The notes beneath the pieces are model-generated. The model saw only the letters and a program-made list of their open reading frames with translations. It was not told the DNA's origin and searched no databases. This document shows, one piece after another, positions 1,060 through 44,273 of a stretch of DNA of 64,000 bases (position 1 is its first letter; the number at the start of each line of letters is the position of its first letter). The stretch is from Bacteroidetes bacterium RIFCSPLOWO2_12_FULL_35_15 (lineage in GTDB: Bacteria > Bacteroidota > Bacteroidia > 2-12-FULL-35-15): positions 40,089-104,088 of the forward strand of contig MEPB01000056.1 of NCBI GenBank assembly GCA_001769385.1, given 5' to 3'. Position numbers and translations under genes: made by a program.

Positions 1060-1095
1060 ATGATGCCTATCAAAAGAATTATTGATAAAAATTAT
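1060..1095 (-). promoter_or_regulatory. Tandem FNR-like boxes upstream of the partial gene 1-1012
   Basis: Boxes ATGAT-GCCT-ATCAA (1060-1073) and TTGAT-AAAA-ATTAT (1082-1095) start 22 bp apart, the same geometry as 14 other pairs in the window. The expected -7 position (about 1030-1037) is only a weak match to TAnnTTTG, so this is one of the weaker promoters of the set. Confidence 0.5.
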
Positions 1096-1100
1096 TAGGC

Positions 1101-1280
1101 TTTATATAAGTTAAAATGGTATAAAATATTATTTTTTTTATTAAAAAAGAACAAACGGAACGCCATTGGGAGTCATGAAGCAATCTTCCATCTTTTATTA
1201 TTTAAGATTGCTTCGACTGAAAAAGTTTCTATTATGCCCCAGGTATGCATTCAATTATTTTTAATAAATTAAATGTATAA
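1101..1280. repeat. Dispersed intergenic hairpin repeat, copy 1
   Basis: This stretch matches 13753-13919 over its whole length, from 'ctttatataag' to 'taaattaaatgtataa'. It contains inverted arms around 'gaagcaatctt' and 'aagattgcttcgactga'. The copy is decayed: the outer arms that pair well in the second copy are mismatched here. With the terminator at 1296-1327 and the boxes at 1060-1095 it accounts for most of the gap 1013-1345. Confidence 0.75.
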
Positions 1281-1295
1281 TTCTATTAATCATAA

Positions 1296-1327
1296 TAAAA
1301 AAGCATCCTGTTTTCAACAGGATGCTC
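1296..1327 (-). terminator. Rho-independent terminator of the SprB-repeat gene 1346-5047
   Basis: A 9-bp perfect stem AGCATCCTG/CAGGATGCT with a 7-nt loop is followed on the minus strand by a U-run (A-run at 1297-1301). It sits 19 nt beyond the stop codon. Confidence 0.85.
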
Positions 1328-1345
1328 CTTTTAATAAATCAATTA

Positions 1346-4300
1346 TTATTTAATAATTTTTAATTTTTTTGTTACAATTGTATTCTCAGTATAGATCTGC
1401 ACAAAATATGCACCTTGTTCAAATGCAGATATATTTATCTCAAACTTTGAATTTTGAGGCTCTGCTTCAAATACATTCTGGCCGAGTACATTCATCACTT
1501 TTAGCTTTTGAATTATTAAGCCATTGTTTTCGATCATCACTTTCTCATTTGCAGGATTTGGGAAGATCAAAATTTTCTCGCTCAGATTACTGAAATTATC
1601 AATACCTAATGAACTGTTTACTGTAAACACATTGGAAACTGAACAACCATTTCCATCTGTTGTAGTGATCGTATATGTTCCTGCAGCCAGATTTGATAAA
1701 TCGGCTGTTGTTGCAGAATTTGACCAGGTATAACTGTAAGGCGGAGTACCACCACCAACAGTAATATCAAGAGCTCCATCTGTTGCAGTTGGTGAAGTTG
1801 CAGGAGTAATCACTCCATTAACACTTAGCGGAAGCGATGGTTCAGCAATAGTATATGAACTTGTTTTTGCACAACCATTTGCATCTATTACTATTACAGA
1901 ATAAACACCTGCATAAAGATTGAAAACATCTTCTGTTACATTTCCTGAAGACCATTCATAACTATATCCTGAAACGCCACCTGTTACAGAAAGATCTATC
2001 ACGCCATTGTTTCCACCATGACATGCAACTTCTGACACGTTTGAATTAATAGTTATTGCTGCAGGTTCAATAATTGTTACCGTTTTTGTTTTTACACAGT
2101 TGTTTGCATCTTTAACGTAAACTGTATATGCTCCCCCGTTTAGACCGATAAATACATTTGAGGTTTGGTAGGTAGATCCATCAATACTATATTGATATGC
2201 TCCTGTTCCTCCATCTGCAATGATAGAAAATTCACCATCATTTGCTCCGGAACAACTTACATGCAACACTCCTGCAAATACATTTAATGCCAGAGGTTCA
2301 GTTACTGCAAAAACCTTACTTCCCATGCAACTAGCTGCATCACGAACAATAACAGTATATATTCCTGCATTTAAATTAGTGAAATTTGGACTGGATTGGA
2401 ATGTAAATCCACCATTTATACTGTACGCCATTGTTCCTGTACCACCGGCAGCAGAAATAGTTGCGGCTCCTCCGGCACTTCCATTACATTGAACATTACT
2501 TACTGCCGTGTTTATTGCAAATGCGTTAGGTTCTGTTAAAGTAATAACTTCTGTTCCTGCGCAACCATTTGCATCCCTAACGGTAACAGTATATGTTCCG
2601 GCATATAAACCGTTAAATGAGCTGGAAGTTGACCAGTTTTCGCCATTAAGACTATATTCCAATGTTCCTGTTCCGCCAGTTACTGCATTGATTGTAATTG
2701 AACCATCATTTATACCGTTACATGCAACATTTGTATGACTGGTGCTTGTTAAAACCGGTCCATTGGAATCATTGATAGTTGCTGAAGCAATACTTTGACA
2801 TCCTGTTCCGTCCATTAGATAGATGTAATATGTTCCTGCCGATTTTCCGGTAAATGAACCGGTAGAATTATATGTTTGTCCATCTAGACTGTACTGATAA
2901 CCAGCTCCTGAACCGCCTGAAGCGGAAACAAGTATCGTTCCATTGCTATTTCCACAGGTAGCATTTCCTGTAACAGAAGTTACTGCAATGACGGCAGGCT
3001 GATTTAACGTTACAAATGTTACATATGGGCAAGCAAAAGCATCTTCTATAGTAATTTTATATGTTCCTGCTTCAAGATTGTTAAATATTCCGGTAGGTTG
3101 AAATTCAAAATCATTGATACTATATTTATACTTACCTGAACCTCCGGTTGCGACAACAGCAATACTTCCATCGTTAGAAAGATTACATGTCTCGTTCATT
3201 GTTGTTACCGTTGCCGATACGGCTGTAGGTTGAGTCACATCAATAGTTGTAGTATCAGTACAGGAAGCAGCATCTTTTGCGTAAACAATATAGGTTCCGG
3301 CTAATAAACCATCAAAATGCGGATCAGACTGATAGTTGATACCATTAAGACTATACGTAAATGTTCCAATGCCACCAGTTACCGAAGCAACATCTATTAC
3401 ACCATTTTTTCCTCCATTACAGTTAACAGCACTTGATGTTGCTACAAGCTCAATCATAGGAGGCTGAGAAATTGTTAAACGTCTTCCATTTTTACAACCT
3501 GCAGCATCTTTAACCAAAAGAGAATAATTTCCGGCCATCAAAGCAGGAAAAGTTCCACTTGTTTGATAAATTTGTCCTCCGTTGACACTGTATTGTAATG
3601 TACCTGAACCACCGGTTGCAAGAAGAACCACACTTCCGTCATTGGTACCATTACAGCTAACATTAGTTGTGCTTAAAACACTAAGAACAGGAGCTCCCTG
3701 ATCGTTTACATTAAGCGGGGTAAAATTTGTACACGAATTAATATCTTTAATAGTCACAACATGTGACCCGGAAGTTACATTAGAAAAAGCACCACTACTT
3801 TGAAAGGATCCTGAATTCAATTGATATTGTAAGGCACCGGTTCCACCGGTAGCAACAACCAGAATTGAACCATCATTATTTCCGCAACTTGAATTAGTTG
3901 ATGATGACGTTAAAAAAAGAATTGCAGGCGGTTCTGAAATTGTAAAAGGGGTAGTTTTAGTGCATCCTAATGCATCTTTTATATGTAATGTATAATTATC
4001 AATTGGTAAACTGCTCATTACAGGATTCGATTGAAAATTGAAATCGTCCAGGCTGTATAAAAAAGGTGGTGCACCACCAGTTCCAACAGCTATTATACTT
4101 CCATCATTTCCACCATTACAAGTTACATTTACAATTGATGATGCGCTAACTCCAAGTCCAACAGAAATATTCATTGTATGTACATCAGTACAAGCGCTAT
4201 TCCATCCATCCAATGTTGCTGTTAAACTCACAGTATAAACTCCCGGTGTTGAATAAGAGTGTGAAGGATTTTGCAAATAAGACACAGGAGAACCATCACC

Positions 4301-5047
4301 AAAATTCCAGGTATAATAATTATTTGTACCGGAGTAATTCGCCATTCCAATTGTATTAAACATACTATCTTTATTCATTAAGGTACTATTCGTAAATGCA
4401 ACAGCTGCAGAAGGAATAACACATTTAGAACTGGCATTAAAATTAGAAGTAATAAAATTAGTCAGTTGCGGTACAAGATAAAAATCACCTTCCTTCGCAA
4501 AAGTATCCATTGCACTCGTCCAGTTAAATCCTGTAGAAGTTCCGGCAAGAGAAGGTAAGTCTTCTAAACGTCCTTCTCCATCACCTGTATATTTTAATTG
4601 GAAAGAATCACCAAATGGAAAAGATGTACTTCGAAGTTCAATCACCACCGCAAAATTACTTGTAACTGAAACTCCGCCATCACCAAAAGTTGCCGTAATG
4701 AAACCGGCTAAATTATCCTTGGTCATAAAGGGCTTATCTACTGAACGTAAAGCAGATGTTGGTCTGCCATTCACGTCAACATTATAGATAGAAATACGTA
4801 ACACAACGCCTCCTTTTGCTCCCGGATATTGACCATAAACTCTGACTTGGCCGACTTTGCCAGGCCCGCTATAATGATAAGTTTGAGCAGCAAATTCCTC
4901 ATACCCTTTTATTAATGTATAATATCCTGTTACTCCTTGATTTTTTGAGTTGACGTAACCATTCAAGTCTATGCAACTGGTTTGCGCCTTTAATCCCAAA
5001 AGGCTTAAAAAGAAAGCCATAGCGATAAGTGTATTTTTAATTTTCAT
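1346..5047 (-). CDS. SprB-repeat surface protein with type A T9SS sorting domain
   Basis: A 1233-residue exported protein. Signal peptide residues 1-21 (ends 'GLKAQ'). Residues ~200-295 contain a PKD-type domain ('YTWNFGDGSP' ... 'HSYSTPGVYTVSLTA'). About eleven SprB-type repeats of ~78 residues follow from ~300 to ~1130, each with the pattern 'V.C.G..DG.I.. ..GG.G...YS.', as in the Flavobacterium gliding adhesin SprB. The last ~75 residues form a type A T9SS sorting domain ('IFPNPANEKVMI' ... 'GAYFVQIY' ... 'KKLKIIK'), so the protein should be secreted through T9SS and attached to the cell surface. It stands alone between a promoter with tandem FNR-like boxes and a strong terminator. Adhesion or matrix function is inferred from the family. 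Confidence 0.85.
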   Translation of the reverse strand: MKIKNTLIAMAFFLSLLGLKAQTSCIDLNGYVNSKNQGVTGYYTLIKGYEEFAAQTYHYSGPGKVGQVRVYGQYPGAKGGVVLRISIYNVDVNGRPTSALRSVDKPFMTKDNLAGFITATFGDGGVSVTSNFAVVIELRSTSFPFGDSFQLKYTGDGEGRLEDLPSLAGTSTGFNWTSAMDTFAKEGDFYLVPQLTNFITSNFNASSKCVIPSAAVAFTNSTLMNKDSMFNTIGMANYSGTNNYYTWNFGDGSPVSYLQNPSHSYSTPGVYTVSLTATLDGWNSACTDVHTMNISVGLGVSASSIVNVTCNGGNDGSIIAVGTGGAPPFLYSLDDFNFQSNPVMSSLPIDNYTLHIKDALGCTKTTPFTISEPPAILFLTSSSTNSSCGNNDGSILVVATGGTGALQYQLNSGSFQSSGAFSNVTSGSHVVTIKDINSCTNFTPLNVNDQGAPVLSVLSTTNVSCNGTNDGSVVLLATGGSGTLQYSVNGGQIYQTSGTFPALMAGNYSLLVKDAAGCKNGRRLTISQPPMIELVATSSAVNCNGGKNGVIDVASVTGGIGTFTYSLNGINYQSDPHFDGLLAGTYIVYAKDAASCTDTTTIDVTQPTAVSATVTTMNETCNLSNDGSIAVVATGGSGKYKYSINDFEFQPTGIFNNLEAGTYKITIEDAFACPYVTFVTLNQPAVIAVTSVTGNATCGNSNGTILVSASGGSGAGYQYSLDGQTYNSTGSFTGKSAGTYYIYLMDGTGCQSIASATINDSNGPVLTSTSHTNVACNGINDGSITINAVTGGTGTLEYSLNGENWSTSSSFNGLYAGTYTVTVRDANGCAGTEVITLTEPNAFAINTAVSNVQCNGSAGGAATISAAGGTGTMAYSINGGFTFQSSPNFTNLNAGIYTVIVRDAASCMGSKVFAVTEPLALNVFAGVLHVSCSGANDGEFSIIADGGTGAYQYSIDGSTYQTSNVFIGLNGGAYTVYVKDANNCVKTKTVTIIEPAAITINSNVSEVACHGGNNGVIDLSVTGGVSGYSYEWSSGNVTEDVFNLYAGVYSVIVIDANGCAKTSSYTIAEPSLPLSVNGVITPATSPTATDGALDITVGGGTPPYSYTWSNSATTADLSNLAAGTYTITTTDGNGCSVSNVFTVNSSLGIDNFSNLSEKILIFPNPANEKVMIENNGLIIQKLKVMNVLGQNVFEAEPQNSKFEINISAFEQGAYFVQIYTENTIVTKKLKIIK

Positions 5048-5089: not shown

Positions 5090-5155
5090 CAAAACTATTG
5101 CAGAAATAAAATTGAATGAATGAACTTAATCATTGAAGGGTTTGATTCTAATCAA
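5090..5155 (-). promoter_or_regulatory. Regulon promoter of the SprB-repeat gene 1346-5047
   Basis: Boxes ATGAA-CTTA-ATCAT (5120-5133) and the perfect TTGAT-TCTA-ATCAA (5142-5155) start 22 bp apart. The minus-strand -7 box TAGTTTTG at 5090-5097 begins 22 bp from the nearer box. The predicted start is near 5085, putting the boxes at about -41.5 and -63.5. Confidence 0.75.
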
Positions 5156-5970: not shown

Positions 5971-6066
5971 CAAAGGAAAACACATACTTCTCTGCCTGAT
6001 ATGATATTAATCAAAAACTATTTTGATGCTAATCATTACTATAAAATAAAAAATAAAATATTTTTG
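5971..6066. promoter_or_regulatory. Divergent regulon promoters for the BON gene and the DUF2267-USP operon
   Basis: Boxes ATGAT-ATTA-ATCAA (6001-6014) and TTGAT-GCTA-ATCAT (6023-6036) start 22 bp apart. Rightward, -7 box TATTTTTG (6059-6066) begins 22 bp after the second box. Leftward, a weaker -7 box TTCCTTTG (5971-5978, complement) lies 22 bp from the first box. Each gene therefore has one box near -41.5 and the other near -63.5. Confidence 0.75.
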
Positions 6067-9663: not shown

Positions 9664-10281
9664 TTATTTAATAGAAATATCAGAGCCCACAACATTCCCC
9701 TCTGTTCGATTACTCATCTTTTTAACCCGTTTATCAAATTTGTGTTGATGCTCTTCAATGATATCGTCTAAATTGCCATAATTACTTTGAGGTTCAGCTT
9801 CATCGCTATTTTGGTAATCAGATATTGGTTCTGATGAAAAAAGCGGATCAATACCTACCTCTTTAAAGTAAGTTTTGTTTTTTATAATTTCAATTTTGGC
9901 AAGTTTATTTTTTAATTTTTTGATTATAGCTTTTTCTTTTTTGTTTTTTCCTCTATACGAAGAAGCTATTTCCTCCACTACATGAATACTAACTTTTTTC
10001 ATTCGTTCATCAAATGCTGTGTGGTGTTCAGTTACAAAATCAATAAATGAATTAAACGCTGATTCTGAATCTAAAATCTGATTGTCAGTAATATCAAATT
10101 CCATTTCAGAATAATAAGCTGCATCAGTACCAAACTCATCCGTATGTTTTTCAAAAGGAACAAGTTCATTTCTGACAATTTTTTGTAATTCTGTTTTTTC
10201 CTGTTGAGTAATCACTTTATCAACATCTGCAACCGCATATAGCAATTTGCCGAGCTCTGAGTAAAATTCTTTGTAAAGCAT
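9664..10281 (-). CDS. Cytoplasmic helical protein, possibly TerB-like
   Basis: 205 residues, no signal peptide. The N-terminal ~130 residues resemble TerB/DjlA-type helical domains ('FYSELGKLLYAVADVDKVITQQEKTELQKIV', then 'AFNSFIDFVTEHH'), though the acidic metal-site pattern is not clear to me. The C-terminal part is charged and low complexity. I do not recognise a specific family. The promoter carries a tandem box pair and the M50 protease gene follows on the same strand, so a stress role is inferred from context only. Confidence 0.7.
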   Translation of the reverse strand: MLYKEFYSELGKLLYAVADVDKVITQQEKTELQKIVRNELVPFEKHTDEFGTDAAYYSEMEFDITDNQILDSESAFNSFIDFVTEHHTAFDERMKKVSIHVVEEIASSYRGKNKKEKAIIKKLKNKLAKIEIIKNKTYFKEVGIDPLFSSEPISDYQNSDEAEPQSNYGNLDDIIEEHQHKFDKRVKKMSNRTEGNVVGSDISIK

Positions 10282-10354: not shown

Positions 10355-10420
10355 CTAAGCTATTTAAAGAAAAAATAATTGTACTTGATAAAAATCATAC
10401 TTCAAAATGATATGTGTCAA
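10355..10420 (-). promoter_or_regulatory. Regulon promoter of the 9664-10281 / M50 protease unit
   Basis: Boxes TTGAT-AAAA-ATCAT (10385-10398) and ATGAT-ATGT-GTCAA (10407-10420) start 22 bp apart. On the minus strand TAGCTTAG (10355-10362, one mismatch to TAnnTTTG) lies 22 bp from the nearer box; predicted start near 10350. Confidence 0.68.
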
Positions 10421-12349: not shown

Positions 12350-12445
12350 CAAAGCTAAAATGAAAAAAAGCAGTGTCTGCTGATTTCTATCAACTTCAAA
12401 ATTGACTCTCATCATTAAAACTAAAGGTAATCCAACCTAAATTTG
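12350..12445. promoter_or_regulatory. Divergent regulon promoters for polX and the DUF892 gene
   Basis: Boxes CTGAT-TTCT-ATCAA (12380-12393) and TTGAC-TCTC-ATCAT (12402-12415) start 22 bp apart. The leftward -7 box TAGCTTTG (12350-12357, complement) and the rightward -7 box TAAATTTG (12438-12445) both match TAnnTTTG exactly, and each is 22 bp from its nearer box. This is the cleanest symmetric example in the window. Confidence 0.82.
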
Positions 12446-13082: not shown

Positions 13083-13148
13083 TTGAAAAAGATCACTAAA
13101 TTAATTGATTAATATCATTACTGAAATTTAGTGATCAGCATACATTTG
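13083..13148 (+). promoter_or_regulatory. Regulon promoter of the Hsp20 gene
   Basis: Boxes TTGAA-AAAG-ATCAC (13083-13096) and TTGAT-TAAT-ATCAT (13105-13118) start 22 bp apart. The -7 box TACATTTG (13141-13148) begins 22 bp after the second; predicted start near 13153. A separate perfect 12-bp inverted repeat GATCACTAAATT/AATTTAGTGATC (13091-13102 with 13125-13136) surrounds the second box. Confidence 0.8.
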
Positions 13149-14168: not shown

Positions 14169-14235
14169 TTGACAAATATCAAACATGTATTTGATTCTAA
14201 TCATTTATTAGAAATAGCTCATCTCAATATATTTG
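14169..14235 (+). promoter_or_regulatory. Regulon promoter of the glycosyltransferase-like gene
   Basis: Boxes TTGAC-AAAT-ATCAA (14169-14182) and TTGAT-TCTA-ATCAT (14191-14204) start 22 bp apart; -7 box TATATTTG (14228-14235) begins 23 bp after the second. Predicted start near 14240. Confidence 0.78.
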
Positions 14236-18713: not shown

Positions 18714-18810
18714 CAAAATAAATCAATCTGTTTGAAAATATTAATGACGACTATCAACCTTGCTTTTGATGATTATCATTAAATTTAAGAAGGAGGTTGA
18801 GATACATTTG
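18714..18810. promoter_or_regulatory. Divergent regulon promoters for the esterase-like and 18838-20566 operons
   Basis: Boxes ATGAC-GACT-ATCAA (18744-18757) and TTGAT-GATT-ATCAT (18766-18779) start 22 bp apart. The leftward -7 box is TTATTTTG (18714-18721, complement, one mismatch), 22 bp away. The rightward -7 box TACATTTG (18803-18810) is 23 bp away; predicted rightward start near 18815. Confidence 0.75.
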
Positions 18811-21008: not shown

Positions 21009-22073
21009 TTAATTTTTCAAATTTCTAAGTTTTTTGAAATTCAAAATTTTAATAATTCCGTTATCAATTTCAATCAATTTATCTTCCTTAAAATCTGTTA
21101 AGTTGCGACTAACCGATTCCGGTGAAATGCCTGCTAATGCGGATATATTTTCGCGTGCCACCGGAAAATATTCGTTCTCCCTGTCTTCTGGAAAGTATCT
21201 GCTATAAATGAATAGCAAAGCTTCTGCAACTCTTTTTCGAGCAGAATTATACGCTAATTTCAATAAATTTTCCTCGGCTTCAATAAGATTATTGGATATA
21301 AGTTTAATGAATTTTAAAGAGATCTCATTATTAGAGAAAAGCAATTGAAAGAAATCATTTTTTGGAATAGGCGACACCTCTGAATCTTCTATTGCTACGG
21401 CAGACTCTTTATGATTGGAATGATCAAGTAATGCGTGATAACCAAAAAAGTCTCCTTCTTTATAAATTTCTGTAATGAACTCTTTTCCTAATTCATTTGT
21501 TTTAAAAGTTTTTATTTTTCCTTTGACAATAAAATACAGGAAATTCGGAGTATCAATTTCCATATAAATATGTTCCTTTTTTTGAACTTTTTTAATGGTA
21601 CGATGTTCCGAAAAAATACCAATCTCCTTGTTCGTTTTTACCTCATTAATAAGACCTTCCAGATCTTCAAAATTTTTATTGAATTTTTCTTTCAGTAGTT
21701 GATTTTTCTTAATTCTTGCACTCACAACTCTTAACAGGTCATTCCCCGTAAAAGGTTTGGTCAGATAATCATCTGCCCCGAGATCCATTCCTCTTCGAAA
21801 GTCTTTTGCTTCAGATTTTGCAGTTATAAAAACAAACGGAACCCCTGCCATATCGGGAGTGTTTTCAATAGCACGTAAAACGCCATAACCATCTAATTCA
21901 GGCATCATAATATCACATAGGATCAAATCAAGTTTGTTTTTTCTTGCGATCTCTAAACCTTCTTTACCATCATTTGCAGTAAGAACATTATAATTTGCTA
22001 ATTCAAGTATTTCTGATGTATTCTCACGAACATCTCTGTTGTCTTCTATAATAAGTATTGTATTGTTCATCAA
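21009..22073 (-). CDS. Response regulator fused to a CRP/FNR-family DNA-binding module
   Basis: 354 residues. Residues 3-120 are a receiver domain: acidic pocket E10/D11, phospho-acceptor D54 ('LILCDIMMPELDGYG'), conserved T/A switch ('VFITAKSEAKD') and Lys in 'DDYLTKPF'. A linker helix (~125-160) leads to a cyclic-nucleotide-binding-type beta barrel (~165-265) and a C-terminal winged helix (~275-345). The recognition helix reads 'GISPESVSRNL', with E319, S322 and R323 at the positions by which E. coli FNR (E209, S212, R213) reads TTGAT. There is no cysteine cluster, so no Fe-S oxygen sensing; input should be phosphorylation by a kinase not present here. It is the best candidate to bind the tandem TTGAT boxes across this window. 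Confidence 0.93.
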   Translation of the reverse strand: MMNNTILIIEDNRDVRENTSEILELANYNVLTANDGKEGLEIARKNKLDLILCDIMMPELDGYGVLRAIENTPDMAGVPFVFITAKSEAKDFRRGMDLGADDYLTKPFTGNDLLRVVSARIKKNQLLKEKFNKNFEDLEGLINEVKTNKEIGIFSEHRTIKKVQKKEHIYMEIDTPNFLYFIVKGKIKTFKTNELGKEFITEIYKEGDFFGYHALLDHSNHKESAVAIEDSEVSPIPKNDFFQLLFSNNEISLKFIKLISNNLIEAEENLLKLAYNSARKRVAEALLFIYSRYFPEDRENEYFPVARENISALAGISPESVSRNLTDFKEDKLIEIDNGIIKILNFKKLRNLKN

Positions 22074-22170: not shown

Positions 22171-22992
22171 CTATTCGTGAATTGATAATAAAGGAACGTG
22201 TGTATGAAAAGCCATTTTCTTAATATTTGTCCGTTGAAACATGTGCGCAAACAAATTATGTTTTTTAGGTATCATTACTAACATGTCCACATTATGTTCG
22301 TCCACAAATTCGTTGATTCCCACAACCATATCTTCACTTTCAGGAAAGTAAAGGGAATGGTCAAAATTTTCAAATATATTTTCAATTTTAACACCAGAAA
22401 CAGCATGGGCGTATTCAGGCTCTTTTTTAGGATCAACAATATTAAATATCATTAATTTGGCATTAAATAACTGAAGGAATGTTTTCAATTTTTTTATTGC
22501 AGGCGAATTAGTCACTGATTCATAATCGCATGCAAAAGCAATATTCTCAATTTTTTTATATTTGGCATGCTGCGGAATTATTAATGTCGGGCAATCAATA
22601 TTTTTTATAACACCGGTTGCATTGCTTCCAATAATTTCTGTAATACGCCCCTCTCCGGTAATTCCCATTACTATCAGATCAATTTTTTTTTCTTTAACAA
22701 TATCCCGTATTTCGTCTATTACAAAACCCGGCTTAACTATTTTTTCAATTACAACTTGTTTACCATGTTTTACATGTAACTCCTTTTCGTAACTAGTAAG
22801 TCTTTTCATACTATTATTCTCTAACTCATCGAGTGAAGGAATTACAATAGGAATGTCACTGGCAACAAGAGGAATATGATAAACATTTAATAAGATTACA
22901 GTTGCTTTAGAAAGTTTTGCAATTTCAATGGCATAATCGGCTGCATTATTTGCAGTCTTCGAAAAATCGGTAGGAATTAATATCGTTTTCAT
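22171..22992 (-). CDS. Universal stress protein, two UspA domains
   Basis: 273 residues, tandem UspA folds at ~1-145 and 148-270. The first domain has an intact nucleotide loop ('LIVMGITGEGRITEIIGSNAT'), so ATP binding is likely. The second is divergent ('MLVMIPKKHNLFAHMFQRTNIK'). Cytoplasmic. It starts 22 nt after the hemerythrin-like gene and has no promoter boxes of its own, so the two form an operon under the promoter at 23558-23623. Confidence 0.92.
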   Translation of the reverse strand: MKTILIPTDFSKTANNAADYAIEIAKLSKATVILLNVYHIPLVASDIPIVIPSLDELENNSMKRLTSYEKELHVKHGKQVVIEKIVKPGFVIDEIRDIVKEKKIDLIVMGITGEGRITEIIGSNATGVIKNIDCPTLIIPQHAKYKKIENIAFACDYESVTNSPAIKKLKTFLQLFNAKLMIFNIVDPKKEPEYAHAVSGVKIENIFENFDHSLYFPESEDMVVGINEFVDEHNVDMLVMIPKKHNLFAHMFQRTNIKKMAFHTHVPLLSIHE

Positions 22993-23014: not shown

Positions 23015-23545
23015 TCAAAATTTTTCGTTAATGATCAGTTTGAGTAATAAGTGTTTTTTCTCCATAATAAAATATTTTTCACAATTCAGATCCAGCATTT
23101 TCAAATCCCAAAAGCACTGTTTCAATGATTGTGACACATTATCAGCAGGGTTATAATTATTTGTCAATTGCTTTATTTGTTTTAACAAAGAAGAAAGTTT
23201 ATTTATTTCATTCCATATTTTACGGTATATATTTTTTAATTCAGCTGCTTTAAAATCCAACTCTTTCTCTTCCTCCAGACTTAATTTTTGTAAAACCGGA
23301 AAAAGAATATATTTTTCCTCTGCAATATGTGCTTCTAACAATTCTTTGAACTCAACAAAATGTTTATTGATCAACTCTAAATTTTTTACAGCTTTTTTGT
23401 CAAAGCGCATTGCTGAATTAAGAATTGTTGATATTATAGGTAAATTATATTTAAAATAATCATGATGCTCAGTCATAATTTTATCAATTATCATTGGGGC
23501 CGAATCACTCTGAACATCATTTTTTATAATTGTTTCCATCATCAT
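23015..23545 (-). CDS. Hemerythrin-like protein
   Basis: 176 residues. A four-helix bundle with metal-ligand-type His/Glu residues: 'TEHHDYFKYNLP' (helix 1), 'HFVEFKELLEAHIAEEKYILFPVL' (H-x3-E at the end of helix 2, the strongest hemerythrin signature) and 'EKYFIMEKKHLLLKL' (helix 4). Some canonical ligands are hard to place, so di-iron binding is likely but not certain. Related proteins carry oxygen or NO, or repair Fe-S centres (RIC/YtfE type). ATGs at 23545, 23542 and 23539 are all possible starts; the first is used here. First gene of an operon with the universal stress gene downstream. Confidence 0.82.
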   Translation of the reverse strand: MMMETIIKNDVQSDSAPMIIDKIMTEHHDYFKYNLPIISTILNSAMRFDKKAVKNLELINKHFVEFKELLEAHIAEEKYILFPVLQKLSLEEEKELDFKAAELKNIYRKIWNEINKLSSLLKQIKQLTNNYNPADNVSQSLKQCFWDLKMLDLNCEKYFIMEKKHLLLKLIINEKF

Positions 23546-23557: not shown

Positions 23558-23623
23558 CAAAAATACATCCAATTAAATATCCTCATTTTGATTAAAATCA
23601 ATTCTGATAGTGATCAAAATCAC
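23558..23623 (-). promoter_or_regulatory. Regulon promoter of the hemerythrin-USP operon
   Basis: Perfect box TTGAT-TAAA-ATCAA (23588-23601) and GTGAT-CAAA-ATCAC (23610-23623) start 22 bp apart. The minus-strand -7 box TATTTTTG (23558-23565) lies 22 bp from the nearer box; predicted start near 23553. A third overlapping box-like sequence (CTGAT-AGTG-ATCAA, 23604-23617) is out of phase. Confidence 0.83.
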
Positions 23624-33178: not shown

Positions 33179-33205
33179 AAACGTAGGTTTAAAATATTTA
33201 CGGGA

Positions 33206-33271
33206 CAAAACTATTTTATTAAACCAATGATCGAAATGACTCAAATCAAAAGGTCATTTGATAATTATCAC
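33206..33271 (-). promoter_or_regulatory. Regulon promoter of the giant SprB-PorP-PorE-like operon
   Basis: Boxes ATGAC-TCAA-ATCAA (33236-33249) and TTGAT-AATT-ATCAC (33258-33271) start 22 bp apart. The minus-strand -7 box TAGTTTTG (33206-33213) lies 22 bp from the nearer box; predicted start near 33201, 23 nt before the ATG. The remaining spacer to 33488 shows nothing else. Confidence 0.78.
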
Positions 33272-33488: not shown

Positions 33489-35660
33489 TTATTCATTAAT
33501 TTTCAAAACCCTAAACTCTGTCCTTCTGTTTTGCTGATGTTGTTCTTCTGTACATTTTATGCCATTTCCGCAAGGATTAAGGAGTTTTGTTTCGCCATAA
33601 CCTTTTGATGCTAAGCGCTTAGAATTAACGCCTTTTAAGATCAGATAATCAACAACTGATTTTGCACGTTTTTGAGAAAGTGTCATATTGAACTGATCAT
33701 TCGCACGGGAATCAGTATGAGAACTTACTTCAACATTTATCTTTGGATTTTGATTTAAAAAAGTTACAAATCTATCCAGCTCTTTTGCAGCATTAGGCTT
33801 GATATTCCATTTTCCCAGATCGTAATAGATATTTTCCAGCACAAAAGCTTTTTCCATTTCAATTTTATCAAGCATGAAATCAGCAGTAAGTAGTTCGTTT
33901 TTCTTTCCCCCTTTAGAAGAAATGGATATGGGTGCAGTTACCGTAAAATAACCCTCTTTAAACGCTCTGACGATGTAATTTTTCTTTGGTTCTAATTTCA
34001 TTTTATATTTTCCATCTATACCACTTGTCAAAATTTCTTTCTTTTTTGTTTCCTTATTAACTAGTTCAATCGTAGCATCATCGATTAATTCGTTACTCTT
34101 TTTTAAAAATATTTTTCCGGAAAGCATAGCTGTTGGAGCATCATCCAACATAAAATCAGCAATAAACATTTCCGTTTTTTTCTTTCCTACAGTAATTATA
34201 TTAATTGCTGCGGTTTCTGTAATAAAGCCGTCTTTTGAGGAAGTTACCCGGTATTTACTTCCGGGTTGTAACTTAATAATGTAATCTCCGTTGCCGGATG
34301 TTTTCACTATCTCCTTTGTTTTTGTTTCAGTATTTAATAGTTCGATTATTGCATCTGCAACAGCAGCATTATTTTCTTTTAAATAAACTCTTCCCTGCAA
34401 TGTAAAAGATGGTTCCATTTTTTTTACTTCATAAATAGCATCTAAACTATCCCGGTTGGATGAAAGGAAGCCTGATTTTTTATCATCATTAAATGTGATT
34501 GCAAAATCATCTTTGGTGGTATTGATAGGATAATTCATGTTTTCAGAAGTTAAACAGGTTGTTCTGCTACATGTAGTTTCAAATACATCAAGACCTCCCA
34601 TATTATCACGTGAATCGGAAGAAAAATATAAGGTTCCATCAGAATGAACAAAGGGGAACATTTCGTTACCCGGTGTATTCACTTCGGGGCCAAGATTTAT
34701 TGGTGTGGAATATTGGCTTGAATCAACTGTAATCCTGTAAATATCTGTACCACCCAATCCTCCCGGCATGTCAGAAATAAAATACAATACTCTTCCATCA
34801 GCTGATAATGCAGGATGTCCGCATGAATACTCATCGCTGTTGAAAGGCAACATTTCCAAATTCGTCCATTTATCATTAATAAGTTCAGACCTGAAAATTT
34901 TTAAATTATTCTCATTCATGCTGCTCTTTTTCAGCTTATGTTTTTTACTGTAGTTGCTACGGGTAAAATAAACCACATTTTGTGTTTTATTAAATGTTGC
35001 AGGTCCCTCGTGAAAGGCTCCATTAATTTCTCCTTTTAACGGTTGAGGATTTGCCCAATTTCCACTTGTATCTTTTTTTGAATAGTATAGGTCCAGATAA
35101 GATCTTCCGGTCCATCCACTTTCATTTGCAGAATTTTTAATTGTCTTGTCGGCAGAAAAAACAATCCCCTCGCCATATTTTACTTGTCCGAATGCAGAGT
35201 TTACTTCCGGCATCTTTGCCTTTACAATTGCATAAGCCAACGTATCCTGTTTAAACTTATCTATCGATTTACAGGAAGATAGCATACATTCGGCTACAAA
35301 ATCATCTTTTTCAACAGTTAAATATTTCTCAAACCAATTTACTGCATCTTTATATTTCCCAACGCTCATGAGAATTTTACCATAATAGAACATGTTTATT
35401 GGTTTGCTTTCTTGAAAAGTAACAACCTCACTATATAATTTTTCTGCAACCGTTAAATTATTAGTCAGTCGGTACGAATTCGCTAATTTAATTTTTACAT
35501 CATTAGATGATTTTTTACTTAAATACTTTTCATAATAAGTAATTGCATTTTGGTAAGCCATTGCCTCGTAGGTCTTATCACCTTTCCGTACATAATAATT
35601 TGAACAGGAAGTGAATATCAGAGTTGCCAAAACTAACGGATAAATAGTATATTTTTTCAT
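33489..35660 (-). CDS. PorE-like OmpA-family lipoprotein, second paralogue with duplicated CRD module
   Basis: 723 residues, lipoprotein signal with Cys19 ('ATLIFTSCSNYY'). It has the same order as the protein at 23719: TPR, propeller ('VLYFISDMPGGLGGTDIYRI', 'GTLYFSSDSRDNMGGLDVF'), carboxypeptidase-regulatory-like part, OmpA ('VEVSSHTDSRANDQFNMTLSQKRAKSVV'). It is ~68 residues longer because the regulatory-like module occurs twice in tandem ('AVADAIIELLNTETKTKEI' and 'LIDDATIELVNKETKKKEI'). The two paralogues are highly similar through the TPR and propeller. Single gene with its own box pair. Confidence 0.88.
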   Translation of the reverse strand: MKKYTIYPLVLATLIFTSCSNYYVRKGDKTYEAMAYQNAITYYEKYLSKKSSNDVKIKLANSYRLTNNLTVAEKLYSEVVTFQESKPINMFYYGKILMSVGKYKDAVNWFEKYLTVEKDDFVAECMLSSCKSIDKFKQDTLAYAIVKAKMPEVNSAFGQVKYGEGIVFSADKTIKNSANESGWTGRSYLDLYYSKKDTSGNWANPQPLKGEINGAFHEGPATFNKTQNVVYFTRSNYSKKHKLKKSSMNENNLKIFRSELINDKWTNLEMLPFNSDEYSCGHPALSADGRVLYFISDMPGGLGGTDIYRITVDSSQYSTPINLGPEVNTPGNEMFPFVHSDGTLYFSSDSRDNMGGLDVFETTCSRTTCLTSENMNYPINTTKDDFAITFNDDKKSGFLSSNRDSLDAIYEVKKMEPSFTLQGRVYLKENNAAVADAIIELLNTETKTKEIVKTSGNGDYIIKLQPGSKYRVTSSKDGFITETAAINIITVGKKKTEMFIADFMLDDAPTAMLSGKIFLKKSNELIDDATIELVNKETKKKEILTSGIDGKYKMKLEPKKNYIVRAFKEGYFTVTAPISISSKGGKKNELLTADFMLDKIEMEKAFVLENIYYDLGKWNIKPNAAKELDRFVTFLNQNPKINVEVSSHTDSRANDQFNMTLSQKRAKSVVDYLILKGVNSKRLASKGYGETKLLNPCGNGIKCTEEQHQQNRRTEFRVLKINE

Positions 35661-35773: not shown

Positions 35774-35839
35774 CAAACTTCCATATAGCTGTACTTATTT
35801 TCAAAGCAATAGATCAAACACATCGTTGATTTACATCAT
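35774..35839 (-). promoter_or_regulatory. Regulon promoter of the second PorE-like gene
   Basis: The strong box TTGAT-TTAC-ATCAT (35826-35839) has a half-box partner AAGCA-ATAG-ATCAA (35804-35817) 22 bp away. The -7 candidate GAAGTTTG (35774-35781, complement, one mismatch) lies at the standard 22 bp. The leader would be ~109 nt. From 35840 to 36209 I see no gene or clear signal. Confidence 0.55.
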
Positions 35840-36209: not shown

Positions 36210-36275
36210 TTGATCTTAATCAAAATGTCAATTGATTTTTGTCATTTCCAAATTTTTTAGTGGGAACTAATATTG
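36210..36275 (+). promoter_or_regulatory. Regulon promoter of the PEP synthase-Mla operon
   Basis: Perfect box TTGAT-CTTA-ATCAA (36210-36223) and TTGAT-TTTT-GTCAT (36232-36245) start 22 bp apart. -7 box TAATATTG (36268-36275, one mismatch) begins 22 bp after the second; predicted start near 36280. Confidence 0.78.
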
Positions 36276-36297: not shown

Positions 36298-38754
36298 ATG
36301 GAAGCTCATAAAACCTCTTCAGATATAAAATTTATTAAATATTTTAATGAAATTCATCTCAGCGATACCAACATAGTTGGTGGAAAAAATGCTTCGATCG
36401 GTGAAATGAATAATTTGCTTTCATCATTAGGCATAAAAGTTCCTATCGGTTTTGCAATAACCATAGAAGCTTATTGGGAATTTATATATTTCAATAAACT
36501 CAAGGAACCAATTACTGAATTACTCAAGGAGCTGGATAAAAAAAACTATGCTAACCTTAAAGAAATTGGAGAAAAGATCAGAACACTTATGTTAAGTGGT
36601 ATTTTACCTTCTAACATTTCCAAACAAATTATTGACGCATATCGCGATTTACAAACAAAATATAAAATAAATGATGTAGCCGTAAGAAGTAGCGCTACAG
36701 CGGAAGATCTTCCTTCTGCAAGCTTTGCCGGGCAACATGATTCCTTTCTTAATATTTTCGGAGAAGAACTTTTACTTATTGCAGTGCATCATTGTTTTGT
36801 TTCTCTTTTCACCGATAGAGCCATAAAATACAGAGAAGACAACGAATTTAATCACATGCAGGTTGCCATGTCGATTGGTATTCAAAAAATGGTACGTTCA
36901 GATCTTTCCTGCTCAGGTACAGCATTTACCATTGAACCGGAATCAGGTTTTAAGGACATTATTCATATTGCTGGGTGCTGGGGACTTGGCGATAATATTG
37001 TTCAGGGAGCAATAATTCCGGATGAATTTTATGTTTTCAAACCAACATTCAAAGAAGGTAAAAATGCAATCGTTTCTAAAAAGCTTGGATCCAAATTAAA
37101 AACATTGATCTATTCTGCCAATACTGATCACGATCCTGAAATTACGGTGGTAAACCATGATACACCGGTAGAAAAAACCAAACAATTTGTAATAAACAAT
37201 AAAGAAATTAATAAAATAGCCGAATGGGCTCTTGCCATTGAAAAACATTATGGCAGACCAATGGATATTGAATGGGCAAAAGATGGAATTACTGCTGAAA
37301 TATTTATTGTTCAGGCAAGACCGGAAACCGGCCATACTAAAACAGATTGGTTCGAAATAAATGAATACAAATTGAAAGAAAAAGGAAAAATTCTTACCAG
37401 TGGAAGTGCTATCGGAGATAAAATCACAAGTGGCATTGCACGGATACTTAATTCGCCTAAAGAATCTGCAAAATTAAATAAAAATGAAATAGTTGTTACT
37501 GAAATTACAAATCCTGACTGGGATCCGATCATGAAAAAAGCTGGCGCCATTATCACAAATAGCGGAGGCCGGACAAGCCATGCTTCAATTGTAGCGCGGG
37601 AACTTGGATTGCCCGCAATTGTGGGAACTGACAACGGAACAGAAAAAATAAAGGATGGGGAAATGATCACCGTAAGTTGTGCTGAAGGTGAAATTGGAAA
37701 TGTATATGAAGGAAAATTGGATTGGGAAAAGAAAGGAATAGACCGTAAAAATATTGTCATGCCAAAAACACAGGTAATGATGATCCTTGGTGATCCTAAA
37801 AAAGCATTCAAACTTTCATTTTATCCAAATAACGGAATTGGATTATTGAGAATAGAATTTATTATTAATAATTCAATTAAAGTTCATCCAATGGCTTTAG
37901 TAAAATTCAATGTCTTAAAAGATCAGGAAGCAAAAAAAGAAATTGAAAAACTAAGCCATCTCTATACAGATAAGAAAGAATATTTTATTGATAAGCTTGC
38001 ACAATCAGTTGCAACCATTGCTTGCGCATTTTATCCCAAAGAAGTGATCGTTAGAATGAGTGATTTTAAAACCAATGAATATGCGAACTTAATCGGAGGA
38101 AAAGAATTTGAAACTCATGAGCAAAATCCAATGATCGGTTTTAGAGGTGCTTCCAGATATTACAGCGAAAAATACAAAGAAGCTTTTCGCCTTGAATGTG
38201 CAGCAATGAAAAAAGTAAGAGATGAAATGGGATTAAGCAATGTTAAATTAATGATCCCATTTTGCAGAACCATTGAGGAAGGTAAAAAAGTTGTGAAACT
38301 GATGGAAGAAAATGGATTAAAACGTGGTGTAAATGGATTAGAAATATATGTAATGGTAGAAATACCAAGTAATGTAATTCTTGTAGATGAATTTGCAGAA
38401 ATATTTGACGGCTTTTCAATTGGCTCGAATGACCTGACACAGCTCACTCTTGGAATCGATCGTGATTCAGGAATGGTAAGTGGAATTTTTAATGAAGAAA
38501 ATCAAGCAGTAAAAAAACTGATCGTATGGATCATTGCAGCTGCAAAACGAAATAAAAAGAAAATCGGACTGTGCGGACAAGCACCTAGCGATCATCCCGA
38601 ATTTGCACGTTTCCTGGTAAAACAAAATATTGATAGTATTGCTTTTGTTCCTGATGCTCTTATAAAAGGAATTGAAAATATCAACAAAGCGGAAGCAGAA
38701 GAAACAGAAAAAAACAGCAAACAAATCGGATTTGTTCTAACAGGTCTGCTTTAG
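36298..38754 (+). CDS. ppsA: Phosphoenolpyruvate synthase
   Basis: 818 residues (E. coli PpsA has 792). The N-terminal nucleotide-binding domain (~20-350) starts 'VGGKNASIGEM' and contains 'AVRSSATAEDLPSASFAGQHDSFLN'. The swivelling phosphohistidine domain holds His428 in 'GGRTSHASIVARELGLPAIVGT'. The C-terminal PEP/pyruvate barrel has 'RMSDFKTNEYANLIGG', 'FRGASRYYSEKYKEAF' and the catalytic-Cys segment 'IGLCGQAPSDHPEFARFLV'. It makes PEP from pyruvate and ATP, releasing AMP and phosphate, a gluconeogenic step. First gene of an operon with three lipid-transport genes, 21 nt downstream, under a strong regulon promoter. Confidence 0.95.
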   Translation: MEAHKTSSDIKFIKYFNEIHLSDTNIVGGKNASIGEMNNLLSSLGIKVPIGFAITIEAYWEFIYFNKLKEPITELLKELDKKNYANLKEIGEKIRTLMLSGILPSNISKQIIDAYRDLQTKYKINDVAVRSSATAEDLPSASFAGQHDSFLNIFGEELLLIAVHHCFVSLFTDRAIKYREDNEFNHMQVAMSIGIQKMVRSDLSCSGTAFTIEPESGFKDIIHIAGCWGLGDNIVQGAIIPDEFYVFKPTFKEGKNAIVSKKLGSKLKTLIYSANTDHDPEITVVNHDTPVEKTKQFVINNKEINKIAEWALAIEKHYGRPMDIEWAKDGITAEIFIVQARPETGHTKTDWFEINEYKLKEKGKILTSGSAIGDKITSGIARILNSPKESAKLNKNEIVVTEITNPDWDPIMKKAGAIITNSGGRTSHASIVARELGLPAIVGTDNGTEKIKDGEMITVSCAEGEIGNVYEGKLDWEKKGIDRKNIVMPKTQVMMILGDPKKAFKLSFYPNNGIGLLRIEFIINNSIKVHPMALVKFNVLKDQEAKKEIEKLSHLYTDKKEYFIDKLAQSVATIACAFYPKEVIVRMSDFKTNEYANLIGGKEFETHEQNPMIGFRGASRYYSEKYKEAFRLECAAMKKVRDEMGLSNVKLMIPFCRTIEEGKKVVKLMEENGLKRGVNGLEIYVMVEIPSNVILVDEFAEIFDGFSIGSNDLTQLTLGIDRDSGMVSGIFNEENQAVKKLIVWIIAAAKRNKKKIGLCGQAPSDHPEFARFLVKQNIDSIAFVPDALIKGIENINKAEAEETEKNSKQIGFVLTGLL

Positions 38755-42316: not shown

Positions 42317-42413
42317 ATTGTTTTTTTAAATGCATATTTTTTTCGGTAATTATTTTTTTCGGTAAAATTCGTGACAACAAGAAACTGAAAAATATTGATT
42401 AATCATAAATCGT

Positions 42414-42448
42414 AAAAAAGCCCTACCGAATATTAATCCGGTAGGGCT
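42414..42448 (-). terminator. Second terminator downstream of the baeRF gene
   Basis: Stem GCCCTACCG/CGGTAGGGC (42420-42428 with 42439-42447) with an A-run at 42414-42419 (U-run on the minus strand). Confidence 0.8.
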
Positions 42449-42457
42449 GCAATTTAT

Positions 42458-42495
42458 AAAAAAAACATCTTGTTAAATAAACAAGATGTTTTTTT
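42458..42495. terminator. Terminator directly after the baeRF gene
   Basis: Perfect stem ACATCTTGT/ACAAGATGT with A-run before and T-run after, 15 nt beyond the stop codon of 42511-43611. Works in either direction. Confidence 0.88.
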
Positions 42496-42510
42496 GTTAA
42501 TGACAATTGT

Positions 42511-43611
42511 CTAAAAATAGGTAATCAGCGCAATGCGGTTATGATCCATAAGTTTACCATCCTCCACAAATACAACATCTCCGCCAAATTTTAATACTAC
42601 TTCAATAAGATCATCAACGGCATCTTTTAAAGTGTACATGGAATCTTTATCAATATCTTTTGTTACTAATGTATATTTCGTTTTACCGTATTTTCCGGGA
42701 CAGGAATAATTTTTCTCAACAAGCAATATTCGTCCGCGTTGTTCCATGGCCACTCTCCAAACTTCATTTATCCCGGAAGCAAAATTATCCTTACCTATGG
42801 CATCATCTAATAAATTCAGGTATTCTTCCTGTTCTCTTGCATTTTTTTTATCAAACACAACAGCAACTTTAGCTAAGATTTCAGGAATTGTAGCATGTTC
42901 GAAATTACCGGTAACATAATCCAAAATAGACTTCTGATTTTTTGTAATACTCTTATATTTAGATATGATCTGTTCAGCACTACAGATTACAACAGGAAAA
43001 TTTAATGTTTTCAATTCAGCTGAAAGACTCTTATCGATATCACGCAAGTATTTTTCAAGTGTTTCCTCTTTCACATCTTCCGCATCCGTGAAATTCCCAA
43101 CCTTTGAAGGCAGGTCAATTTTCCATTCTTTTACATCCTTGGGAGCATCAATTAATCTGATTTCTTCTAATGAACGATCAAATCCTTTGAGCAATTTATT
43201 CCCATTACTACTGATCAAAAGCACCAGATAATCTTGAGTATGCTTTGTTGCATAGAGAAGATCCCTGATCTCAAATGATTTATCGATAATAATTTTCTCA
43301 ACAACAGAAAATGGCAAATGAAATATTTTTTCCTGCTCACGAGAAACATAAATAGCTAAACCTTTTGAAAGGTGTGTAAAATCAATCTCCTGATAAACCT
43401 TAGACAATTTTGATACTAAGGGATCGGCAATGGAAGGCGGAAACTCATCGAGAATTTTTTCTTCCACTTTATTCATTACCAATTTCAGCTTTTCTTCATC
43501 ATGCTTAAAATGAGGGTATTTAGTGTTTGTTGGGATGATAATAGAAATTGACGGAAAAGTTTTTTTTTCTTTTATCAATTGTTCTGCTTCTAGTAATTGT
43601 TCTGTTTCCAT
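42511..43611 (-). CDS. baeRF family protein (bacterial eRF1/Pelota-like)
   Basis: 366 residues. It matches bacterial homologues of archaeo-eukaryotic release factor 1: 'FPSISIIIPTNTKYPHFKHDEEKLKLVMNKVEEKI' at the N-terminus, 'GLAIYVSREQEKIFHLPFSVVEKIIIDKSFEIRDLLYA', and an L7Ae/eRF1-domain-3-like end ('GRILLVEKNYSCPG', 'LKFGGDVVFVEDGKLMDHNRIALITYF'). No GGQ motif is visible. Relatives include the ribosome-hibernation factor Balon and DosR-regulated mycobacterial Rv2629, so a role in protecting idle ribosomes is a reasonable inference. Single gene with box pair upstream and strong terminators. Confidence 0.82.
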   Translation of the reverse strand: METEQLLEAEQLIKEKKTFPSISIIIPTNTKYPHFKHDEEKLKLVMNKVEEKILDEFPPSIADPLVSKLSKVYQEIDFTHLSKGLAIYVSREQEKIFHLPFSVVEKIIIDKSFEIRDLLYATKHTQDYLVLLISSNGNKLLKGFDRSLEEIRLIDAPKDVKEWKIDLPSKVGNFTDAEDVKEETLEKYLRDIDKSLSAELKTLNFPVVICSAEQIISKYKSITKNQKSILDYVTGNFEHATIPEILAKVAVVFDKKNAREQEEYLNLLDDAIGKDNFASGINEVWRVAMEQRGRILLVEKNYSCPGKYGKTKYTLVTKDIDKDSMYTLKDAVDDLIEVVLKFGGDVVFVEDGKLMDHNRIALITYF

Positions 43612-43626
43612 AATTATATTTTTTTG

Positions 43627-43721
43627 TAAATATATTCAGGAAACAATTTTTCCCTGATGATAACTATCAACTGAAAAATTGATACTCGTCAAATGGAAAA
43701 CATTACTAAATTCCAATCTTG
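43627..43721. promoter_or_regulatory. Regulon promoter of the baeRF gene, possibly divergent
   Basis: Boxes ATGAT-AACT-ATCAA (43657-43670) and TTGAT-ACTC-GTCAA (43679-43692) start 22 bp apart. The leftward -7 is TATATTTA (43627-43634, complement, one mismatch). At the mirror position rightward is CAATCTTG (43714-43721, two mismatches), which would start near 43727, 20 nt before the small membrane-protein gene. Confidence 0.65.
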
Positions 43722-43746
43722 CTCTATCGTAAAAATTCATAAATAA

Positions 43747-43884
43747 ATGAGCAATCGTATCAAAAATATAATTATAATTTTTTTAATTATTATTATCATT
43801 ATACTGACCTGGCTTCTTATCATTAAAGATTATGGAAGATATTGCAAGCCGGTCATAAAAGAAAAAACAAATCAAATGGAGTGA
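43747..43884 (+). CDS. Small single-span membrane protein, 45 residues
   Basis: ATG at 43747 to TGA at 43882. Residues 1-7 are basic (MSNRIKN), 8-26 are an unbroken Ile/Leu/Phe-rich membrane helix ending in 'TWLLII', and the tail 'KDYGRYCKPVIKEKTNQME' is charged. Nothing of this size is recognisable by family. Support is indirect: the start lies 20 nt after the start site predicted from the shared box pair, and the composition is that of a real membrane peptide. AT-rich chance coding is the alternative. Confidence 0.45.
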   Translation: MSNRIKNIIIIFLIIIIIILTWLLIIKDYGRYCKPVIKEKTNQME

Positions 43885-43915
43885 ATTTTTTAATTGAGAT
43901 GGTTTTTTTTTCATC

Positions 43916-43981
43916 TTGACGAAGATCAAGGGTTCCAGTGACAAAGGTCATGGTAGTAATTTAATGATGATTGTAATTTTG
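43916..43981 (+). promoter_or_regulatory. Regulon promoter of the candidate small RNA
   Basis: Boxes TTGAC-GAAG-ATCAA (43916-43929) and GTGAC-AAAG-GTCAT (43938-43951) start 22 bp apart. -7 box TAATTTTG (43974-43981) is an exact TAnnTTTG match 22 bp after the second box. Predicted start about 43986. Confidence 0.78.
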
Positions 43982-43985
43982 CATC

Positions 43986-44180
43986 ATTAAATATATATTT
44001 AGTTTAAGCACGCAGACAGATTTTAATACTAATTAGGTCACGGAACTGTAAAAGTGAGTACTCAGCAAAATAATTGCAAGGCATTTAAGCTGAATATTAT
44101 TTTAATGGAGTATGGAAGATAGAACCTCATATGCTTCTATCTCAAAACAGAGGAGATGAAAATCTACCTCTGTTTTTTTT
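43986..44180 (+). ncRNA. Candidate regulon-controlled small RNA, ~190 nt
   Basis: A complete transcription unit without a plausible gene: promoter at 43916-43981, predicted 5' end near 43986, and a strong intrinsic terminator at 44144-44180. Inside is a hairpin AGATAGAA/TTCTATCT (44117-44124 with 44135-44142) directly before the terminator, leaving ~130 nt of AU-rich 5' sequence that could act as a target-binding region. The only ATG frames inside are 5 codons long or run through the terminator. It is followed by a separate regulon promoter for the phasin-like gene. It could alternatively encode a very short peptide, or be a 6S-like RNA by size. Confidence 0.55.
44144..44180 (+). terminator. 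Terminator of the candidate small RNA
   Basis: Stem AAACAGAGG-AGAT, GAAA tetraloop, ATCT-(A)-CCTCTGTTT, followed by a run of U (44173-44180). A GNRA loop and eight T make this one of the best terminators in the window. Confidence 0.9.
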
Positions 44181-44207
44181 ATCAATATATATTAGAAAAA
44201 CACAGGT

Positions 44208-44273
44208 GTGACGAAGATCACTCCACCCAGTGACGACAATCATTTAAAAAAGAGGCAAATCAAATGACTTTTG
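44208..44273 (+). promoter_or_regulatory. Regulon promoter of the PHB operon
   Basis: Boxes GTGAC-GAAG-ATCAC (44208-44221) and GTGAC-GACA-ATCAT (44230-44243) start 22 bp apart. -7 candidate GACTTTTG (44266-44273, one mismatch) begins 22 bp after the second; predicted start near 44278. Confidence 0.72.

Follow-up and report, generated by a model that had tools for sequence, protein, structure and literature searches.

What reads a promoter code that recurs fifteen times within 64 kb of a single Bacteroidota genome, and what does it control? This question is raised by the window analyzed here—a stretch of 64,000 nucleotides on contig MEPB01000056.1 of Bacteroidetes bacterium RIFCSPLOWO2_12_FULL_35_15—in which fifteen promoter regions are marked by a tandem pair of palindromic boxes. 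To our knowledge, Bacteroidota lack classical stress sigma factors, and how their general stress response is coordinated is an open question. Our sequence analysis suggests that the fifteen promoters likely form one stress-gene network under a phosphorylation-controlled CRP/FNR-type protein that is encoded among them, a fusion of a receiver with a CRP-type DNA-binding domain (REC-CRP) at 21009-22073.

The foundation of this reading is the geometry of the pairs. The first-pass annotation of the window had described fifteen pairs of boxes fitting KTGAY-N4-RTCAW, exactly 22 bp apart from start to start and all in intergenic DNA, a spacing that it held to be beyond chance. All fifteen were recovered with that spacing and all fifteen are intergenic, those at 6001 and 33236 overlapping only upstream extensions of reading frames. 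The consensus stood in its core and not in its outer first base, which carries 0.22 and 0.54 bits and is commonly A, and the left box of the pair at 35804 has four mismatches to it. Since the outer bases are weakly constrained, we counted with the stricter core TGAY-N4-RTCA, accepting pairs with at most one mismatch summed over both boxes; by this core the pair at 35804 has three mismatches, all in its left box. The window holds 14 such pairs when the spacing is 22. In 200 first-order shuffles the same count averages 0.01 and never exceeds 1, and any other spacing between 14 and 60 gives 0-2 pairs in the window itself. By the same rule, the whole genome (5.39 Mb, 110 contigs) contains 53 pairs at spacing 22, 18 of them perfect, but 5 at spacing 21 and 2 at spacing 24, and reversed-pattern controls yielded 0, 1 and 1 pairs at spacings 22, 21 and 24, respectively. 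Genome-wide scoring of intergenic location and of the promoter box discussed below covered 51 of the 53 pairs, of which 50 scored as intergenic; the exception, the pair at 6001, was flagged as intragenic because of a stop-to-stop frame, and we reject this flag. A chance origin of the pairs is rejected by the shuffle, spacing and reversed-pattern controls. No RNA family in Rfam reached its gathering score within the window.

The pairs come with a third element at a fixed distance. As the annotation had noted for almost all cases, a TAnnTTTG box (the -7 box, counted at five or six of its six defined letters) follows the pair at a distance of 22-23 bp in 14 of the 15 window sites, the site at 1060 having four of six letters, while the background rate of such a box is 1.1% per position. 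It sits on the side of the gene start, which for the pair at 43916 lies past a second pair. Genome-wide, 43 of 51 pairs have this box at 21-23 bp, and across 102 flanks offset 22 accounts for 43 matches and offset 23 for 5, each other offset from 0 to 44 giving 0-6. None of the seven perfect window boxes that stand outside pairs (one of which, at 23604, overlaps a pair) has such a -7 box at 22-23 bp; it is thus the pair, not the single box, that goes with promoters here. According to a study of Flavobacterium psychrophilum (PMC9723704), TAnnTTTG occupies -12 to -5, and if this position applies, simple arithmetic predicts box centers at -41.5 (or -42.5) and -63.5. At 6001, 12380 and 18744, which are the three lone pairs between divergent genes, there is a -7 box on both sides, so that two promoters would share a single pair, each box being proximal for one of them and distal for the other; the intergenic DNA at 35.7-36.3 kb and 43.6-44.3 kb instead has separate pairs for the two directions. 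This layout bears on the sign of control. CRP/FNR proteins can act as repressors, and the pairs might be sites of repression or road-blocks, or act with both signs. We nevertheless consider this very unlikely, because the proximal box is at class II distance, because a repressor needs no single fixed register and the distance to the -7 box is as constant as just described, and because the three lone divergent pairs have -7 boxes on both sides.

The same geometry recurs beyond this genome. At a sister locus (L104), whose regulator is 88% identical, we searched the 300 bp before each gene for its best-matching pair at any spacing from 14 to 40, without preselection by box or -7 box and with Usp2 left out. 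For 8 of 8 orthologues of first genes of the window's pair-controlled units this best pair has spacing 22 and 0-1 mismatch; two genes inside apparent operons, those for PRTase and Usp3, have only pairs with 3-4 mismatches, and the regulator gene has a pair at spacing 22 with 2 mismatches. When seven promoters are compared letter by letter between the window and the sister locus, box cores agree at 105 of 112 positions and -7 boxes at 42 of 42, an agreement that for the boxes is partly built in because these sites were chosen by the box and -7 rule, and all other positions agree at 135 of 322. Together with the nearly free spacer between boxes (1.3 bits over the whole 8 bp in 43 oriented promoters of this genome), this last figure makes it exceedingly improbable that a dispersed repeat or a mobile element has spread the pairs. 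Such an origin is suggested by genome G299, whose 109 perfect pairs lie in what appears to be a dispersed, 22-bp-periodic palindromic repeat, also seen with 4 pairs in G315 of the same family (f55); for the pairs studied here we reject it, since their spacers are unconserved. In 80 loci around relatives of the regulator discussed below, the best 80 of 572 confirmed stretches from named Bacteroidota genomes (1.24 Mb in all; Mucilaginibacter, Pedobacter, Fulvivirga, Saprospiraceae and others), spacing 22 accounts for 90 pairs with at most one mismatch, spacing 23 for 10, and each of the remaining spacings between 14 and 60 for 0-6. Spacing controls, genome counts, orthologous promoters and related loci therefore all uphold the claim of the annotation that a large regulon shares a fixed double-site geometry.

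The protein that likely reads these boxes is the response regulator at 21009-22073, in which Pfam recognizes a receiver (Response_reg, E 2.3e-29), a cNMP_binding domain (3.1e-19) and an HTH_Crp_2 domain (3.8e-13). Its receiver keeps the acceptor Asp and the Thr/Lys residues (LILCDIMMP, FITAK, LTKPF), and its residues E319, S322 and R323 align with the E..SR of Escherichia coli FNR, which reads TTGAT. It has only one Cys, located in the receiver, and none of the N-terminal 4Fe-4S cysteines of FNR proper, and is thus not an Fe-S FNR. The term "FNR-like" used in the annotation is therefore apt for the sequence that is read but does not fit as the identity of the reader, for which a receiver-CRP fusion without Fe-S cysteines is the best candidate. 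The regulator gene is the third of an apparent operon (hemerythrin, universal stress protein [Usp], regulator) behind the pair at 23588, which predicts autoregulation. We consider it quite probable that the fifteen pairs are class II activator sites for this protein, two dimers of which would occupy each pair upon phosphorylation.

Comparison across genomes connects the pairs with this family of regulators. In the 77 of the 80 related loci that were kept because their regulator gene was matched at E<1e-60 (three were dropped), the pairs concentrate near that gene: their density is 57 per 100 kb in the nearest 500 bp and 2-4 per 100 kb at distances above 3 kb. In 14 of the 77 the regulator gene has a pair immediately upstream, and in 12 of these 14 a -7 box with five of six letters points at the gene. 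Among 36 genomes of the family, perfect pairs are present in 25 of the 28 with REC-CRP and in 1 of the 8 without. In 296 genomes of the class, with at most seven candidates scored per genome, the corresponding figures are 95/144 versus 40/152 (Fisher p 7e-12), and the mean number of perfect pairs per genome is 2.1 versus 0.5, the latter excluding G299; both the family and the class comparison are uncorrected for kinship.

The related loci also suggest what may act upstream of the regulator. A histidine kinase is encoded within 500 bp of the regulator in 50 of the 77 loci, and 21 of these 50 adjoining kinases have the strict FixL heme motif; the kinase of one locus (L175) matches the FixL PAS domain at E 3e-32. 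Four kinases of this subfamily were found in the present genome: one directly before a second REC-CRP gene, two upstream of the window's island of paired promoters, 1.8 and 4.1 kb upstream of site 1060, and one on contig C70, where the closest listed tandem pair is 2.7 kb away. Low oxygen is thus a fair guess at the signal for several relatives, those with a FixL-like kinase, whereas the four kinases found here lack the strict heme motif. The two kinase genes upstream of the island enclose a further tandem pair, at C56:37437 (window -2652), 2.65 kb upstream of the window, which has a 6/6 -7 box and precedes a gene of 133 amino acids. The second REC-CRP, at C52:37690-39996, is a paralogue encoded directly behind its own PAS kinase.

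Several observations weigh against the assignment of the pairs to REC-CRP 21009-22073 and open the way to a different reader: the pairs might be read mainly by another CRP/FNR protein, either the REC-CRP on C52 or an FNR-like oxygen sensor with cysteines, for example that at C26:77728-78441, with the island REC-CRP sharing or competing. The genome encodes 11 CRP/FNR proteins, of which L005 and L010, at least, also carry an E..SR helix, and FNR-like L005 combines this helix with a Cys-rich N terminus and has a tandem site just after its gene; the helix of the C52 paralogue is of the E..IR type (ETAIR). In this genome, neither REC-CRP gene has a pair with at most one mismatch in the 3.2-kb locus around it (the pair at 23588 is 1.5 kb from the regulator gene), and none of the four subfamily kinases has the strict FixL heme motif. 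In the relatives, regulators with an ESLIR helix have a pair in 1 of 11 loci, so that not every REC-CRP reads the motif near its own gene. Perfect pairs are carried by the 40 of 152 class genomes without detected REC-CRP, and by one family genome (G021, 78% complete) that has four of them and no REC-CRP detected; hence, either the geometry can probably also be used by some other CRP/FNR protein, or a REC-CRP escaped detection. The nine CRP/FNR loci of this genome without REC-CRP (3.2 kb each) cut both ways: they hold one pair in total, which speaks against their products as readers, though the two REC-CRP loci hold none. What makes another main reader unlikely in our view is that the pairs cluster near the REC-CRP gene across the 77 loci of relatives, and that ten family genomes with perfect pairs have no L005-like protein (E<=1e-30) while all ten have REC-CRP, a distribution that disfavors L005 as the sole reader. 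Separately, several family genomes with only an E..IR-type REC-CRP, such as G004, G005 and G018, still have tandem sites on the same contig near the regulator.

The predicted targets point to the function of the network. In the window they comprise genes for BON, DUF2267, DUF892, Hsp20 and PolX proteins, the hemerythrin-Usp-regulator set, a protein of the erythromycin-esterase family (a family name only, which implies no resistance), a phosphoenolpyruvate (PEP) synthase-like protein with Mla genes, a baeRF protein, polyhydroxyalkanoate synthase genes, and two SprB-repeat proteins with PorP/SprF and OmpA. Of the 31 targets that lie neither in the window nor in the flank upstream of it, 27 were scanned for families. 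They include two more BON proteins, a Usp, a ferritin-like protein, a DUF892 protein, an HtrA-like protease, a cytochrome c peroxidase, and Nramp, YtxH, CBS, HlyD, NuoA-like, LUD and CheB/CheR hybrid kinase proteins, but also proteins without an evident role in stress: amine oxidase-like, aminotransferase, phosphoribosyl pyrophosphate synthetase-like, fasciclin, SnoaL, ArsR and DUF480 proteins, a receiver protein and a secretion-tail protein; four of the 27 gave no family match. Targets in relatives add a PAS kinase, CBS-type proteins and what we take, by eye, to be a D-lactate dehydrogenase-like protein. BON, DUF892, Usp, Hsp20, ferritin-like, YtxH and HtrA types belong to RpoS, SigB or EcfG regulons. 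Judged by gene content, the predicted targets thus include many stress genes of the RpoS/SigB type, and several without an evident stress role.

These elements can be assembled into a working model. A sensor kinase of the neighboring type would phosphorylate the receiver of REC-CRP, which would then bind both boxes cooperatively as two dimers, about two helical turns apart on the same face of the DNA. The proximal dimer would touch the housekeeping RNA polymerase as at class II promoters, and the distal dimer would add strength or a threshold. The regulator would also amplify itself, and this positive autoregulation would sharpen the switch. As a result, stress and survival genes, including BON, Usp, Hsp20, ferritin-like, HtrA, hemerythrin, PEP synthase and polyhydroxyalkanoate genes, would be induced in a switch-like manner with no sigma factor of their own. 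Extended beyond this genome, the model becomes more tentative. We give slightly less than an even chance to the proposal that many Bacteroidota run a general stress and low-oxygen survival response without a stress sigma factor, in which a phosphorelay would feed a receiver-CRP fusion acting through obligatory 22-bp pairs on housekeeping promoters, with self-amplification and bidirectional control of divergent genes.

Table 1. Paired-box promoters of the window, the predicted box reader and its apparent operon (window coordinates; n/6, matching letters of the -7 box)
Feature	Position	Strand	Remarks
Tandem pair; weak -7 box 1029-1036 or 1030-1037 (4/6)	1060..1095	-	toward gene starting near 1011 (-), running out of the window
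Tandem pair; -7 box 5090-5097 (6/6)	5120..5155	-	toward SprB-repeat protein 1346-5047
Bidirectional pair; -7 boxes 6059-6066 (6/6; DUF2267 gene) and 5971-5978 (5/6; BON gene)	6001..6036	.	
Tandem pair; -7 box 10355-10362 (5/6)	10385..10420	-	toward 205-amino-acid protein 9664-10281
Bidirectional pair; -7 boxes 12438-12445 (6/6; DUF892) and 12350-12357 (6/6; PolX-type polymerase)	12380..12415	.	
Tandem pair; -7 box 13141-13148 (6/6)	13083..13118	+	toward Hsp20 13195-13653
Tandem pair; -7 box 14228-14235 (6/6), offset 23	14169..14204	+	toward 584-amino-acid protein 14311-16065
Bidirectional pair; -7 boxes 18803-18810 (6/6, offset 23; gene 18838) and 18714-18721 (5/6; erythromycin-esterase-family gene 17350-18687)	18744..18779	.	
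Tandem pair; -7 box 23558-23565 (6/6)	23588..23623	-	before apparent operon hemerythrin-Usp-REC-CRP regulator
Tandem pair; -7 box 33206-33213 (6/6)	33236..33271	-	toward 2200-amino-acid SprB-repeat protein, then PorP/SprF and OmpA genes
Tandem pair with poor left box; -7 box 35774-35781 (5/6)	35804..35839	-	toward OmpA-family gene 33489-35660
Tandem pair; -7 box 36268-36275 (5/6)	36210..36245	+	toward PEP-synthase-like gene 36298-38754 and MlaEFD-like genes
Tandem pair; -7 box 43627-43634 (5/6)	43657..43692	-	toward baeRF family 3 gene 42511-43611
Tandem pair; -7 box 43974-43981 (6/6)	43916..43951	+	next gene start 44314, beyond second pair 44208
Tandem pair; -7 box 44266-44273 (5/6)	44208..44243	+	toward 44314-45054 and PhaC/SDR genes
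REC + cNMP_binding + HTH_Crp_2 response regulator, 354 amino acids, predicted box reader	21009..22073	-	recognition helix PESVSR
Universal stress protein	22171..22992	-	apparent operon with regulator
Hemerythrin-family protein	23015..23545	-	first gene of regulator's apparent operon

Three arrangements deserve mention in their own right. Between 43916 and 44208, a full tandem promoter is separated from the next one by DNA without a clear reading frame; its product may be a long leader or a small RNA, and this interval has no match in Rfam. At 26642-33244, the 2200-amino-acid SprB-repeat protein and its PorP/SprF and OmpA companions stand under a tandem promoter, a surface set within a stress regulon. 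Finally, at L034:5235-5292 (on contig C24 of this genome), three boxes follow one another in 22-bp steps upstream of the NuoA-like gene.

How does this system relate to what is known? We found no description of a REC-CRP regulon or of paired CRP/FNR sites in Bacteroidota in the open-access literature, which does not establish absence from print, and the receiver-CRP architecture may already figure in response-regulator censuses. With a defined family of regulators, a promoter code that can be read, and carriers of the regulator that are named and in culture (Mucilaginibacter, Pedobacter and Fulvivirga), the question of the Bacteroidota stress response becomes directly testable. The predicted system would represent a compact signaling design, in which a receiver and a CRP domain are tied to an exact paired-site geometry, and would allow regulons to be predicted from sequence alone across a large phylum.

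Comparison with characterized systems highlights both similarities and differences. The predicted system would resemble FixL-FixJ-FixK of rhizobia in having a sensor kinase, with a FixL-like heme motif in the 21 relatives' kinases mentioned above, and a receiver-bearing regulator. However, FixJ and FixK are separate proteins, whereas here the receiver and the CRP DNA-binding domain are in one chain, the sites are in 22-bp pairs, the targets are largely stress genes and the four kinases lack the strict heme motif. As for FixK, the CRP/FNR domain is predicted to read a TTGA...TCAA palindrome, the FixK/FnrN consensus being given as TTGANCNNGATCAANG in PMC4999443. With mycobacterial DevR/DosR, the system would share a response regulator with tandem sites and, as predicted here, autoregulation. 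HspX, a DevR/DosR target, is an Hsp20-type protein, and Usp genes are among DevR targets. Two papers (PMC3029386, PMC4973870) describe DevR/DosR as a response regulator that acts cooperatively on tandem sites, the proximal one over the -35 region, that is autoregulated and that has HspX as a target. DevR is nonetheless of the NarL type, whereas here we find HTH_Crp_2 and unrelated boxes, which denotes a parallel and not a relative. With neither the separate proteins of Fix nor the NarL-type regulator of DevR, the system belongs to neither. Its promoters are like those of E. coli FNR and class II CRP in the E..SR helix, in similar half-sites—those of FNR being TTGAT-N4-ATCAA-like—and in a proximal site predicted at -41.5. 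They differ from those of E. coli FNR, of which tandem sites have reportedly been studied, in that the putative reader has a receiver instead of Fe-S cysteines, the second box is fixed at a predicted -63.5 and the -7 box is that of Bacteroidota. Finally, many target types are in common with the general stress responses governed by RpoS, SigB and EcfG, a likeness drawn from gene content alone. Unlike in those responses, no dedicated sigma factor is implied here: the housekeeping TAnnTTTG box is kept, and stress promoters would be marked instead by the paired sites of an activator.

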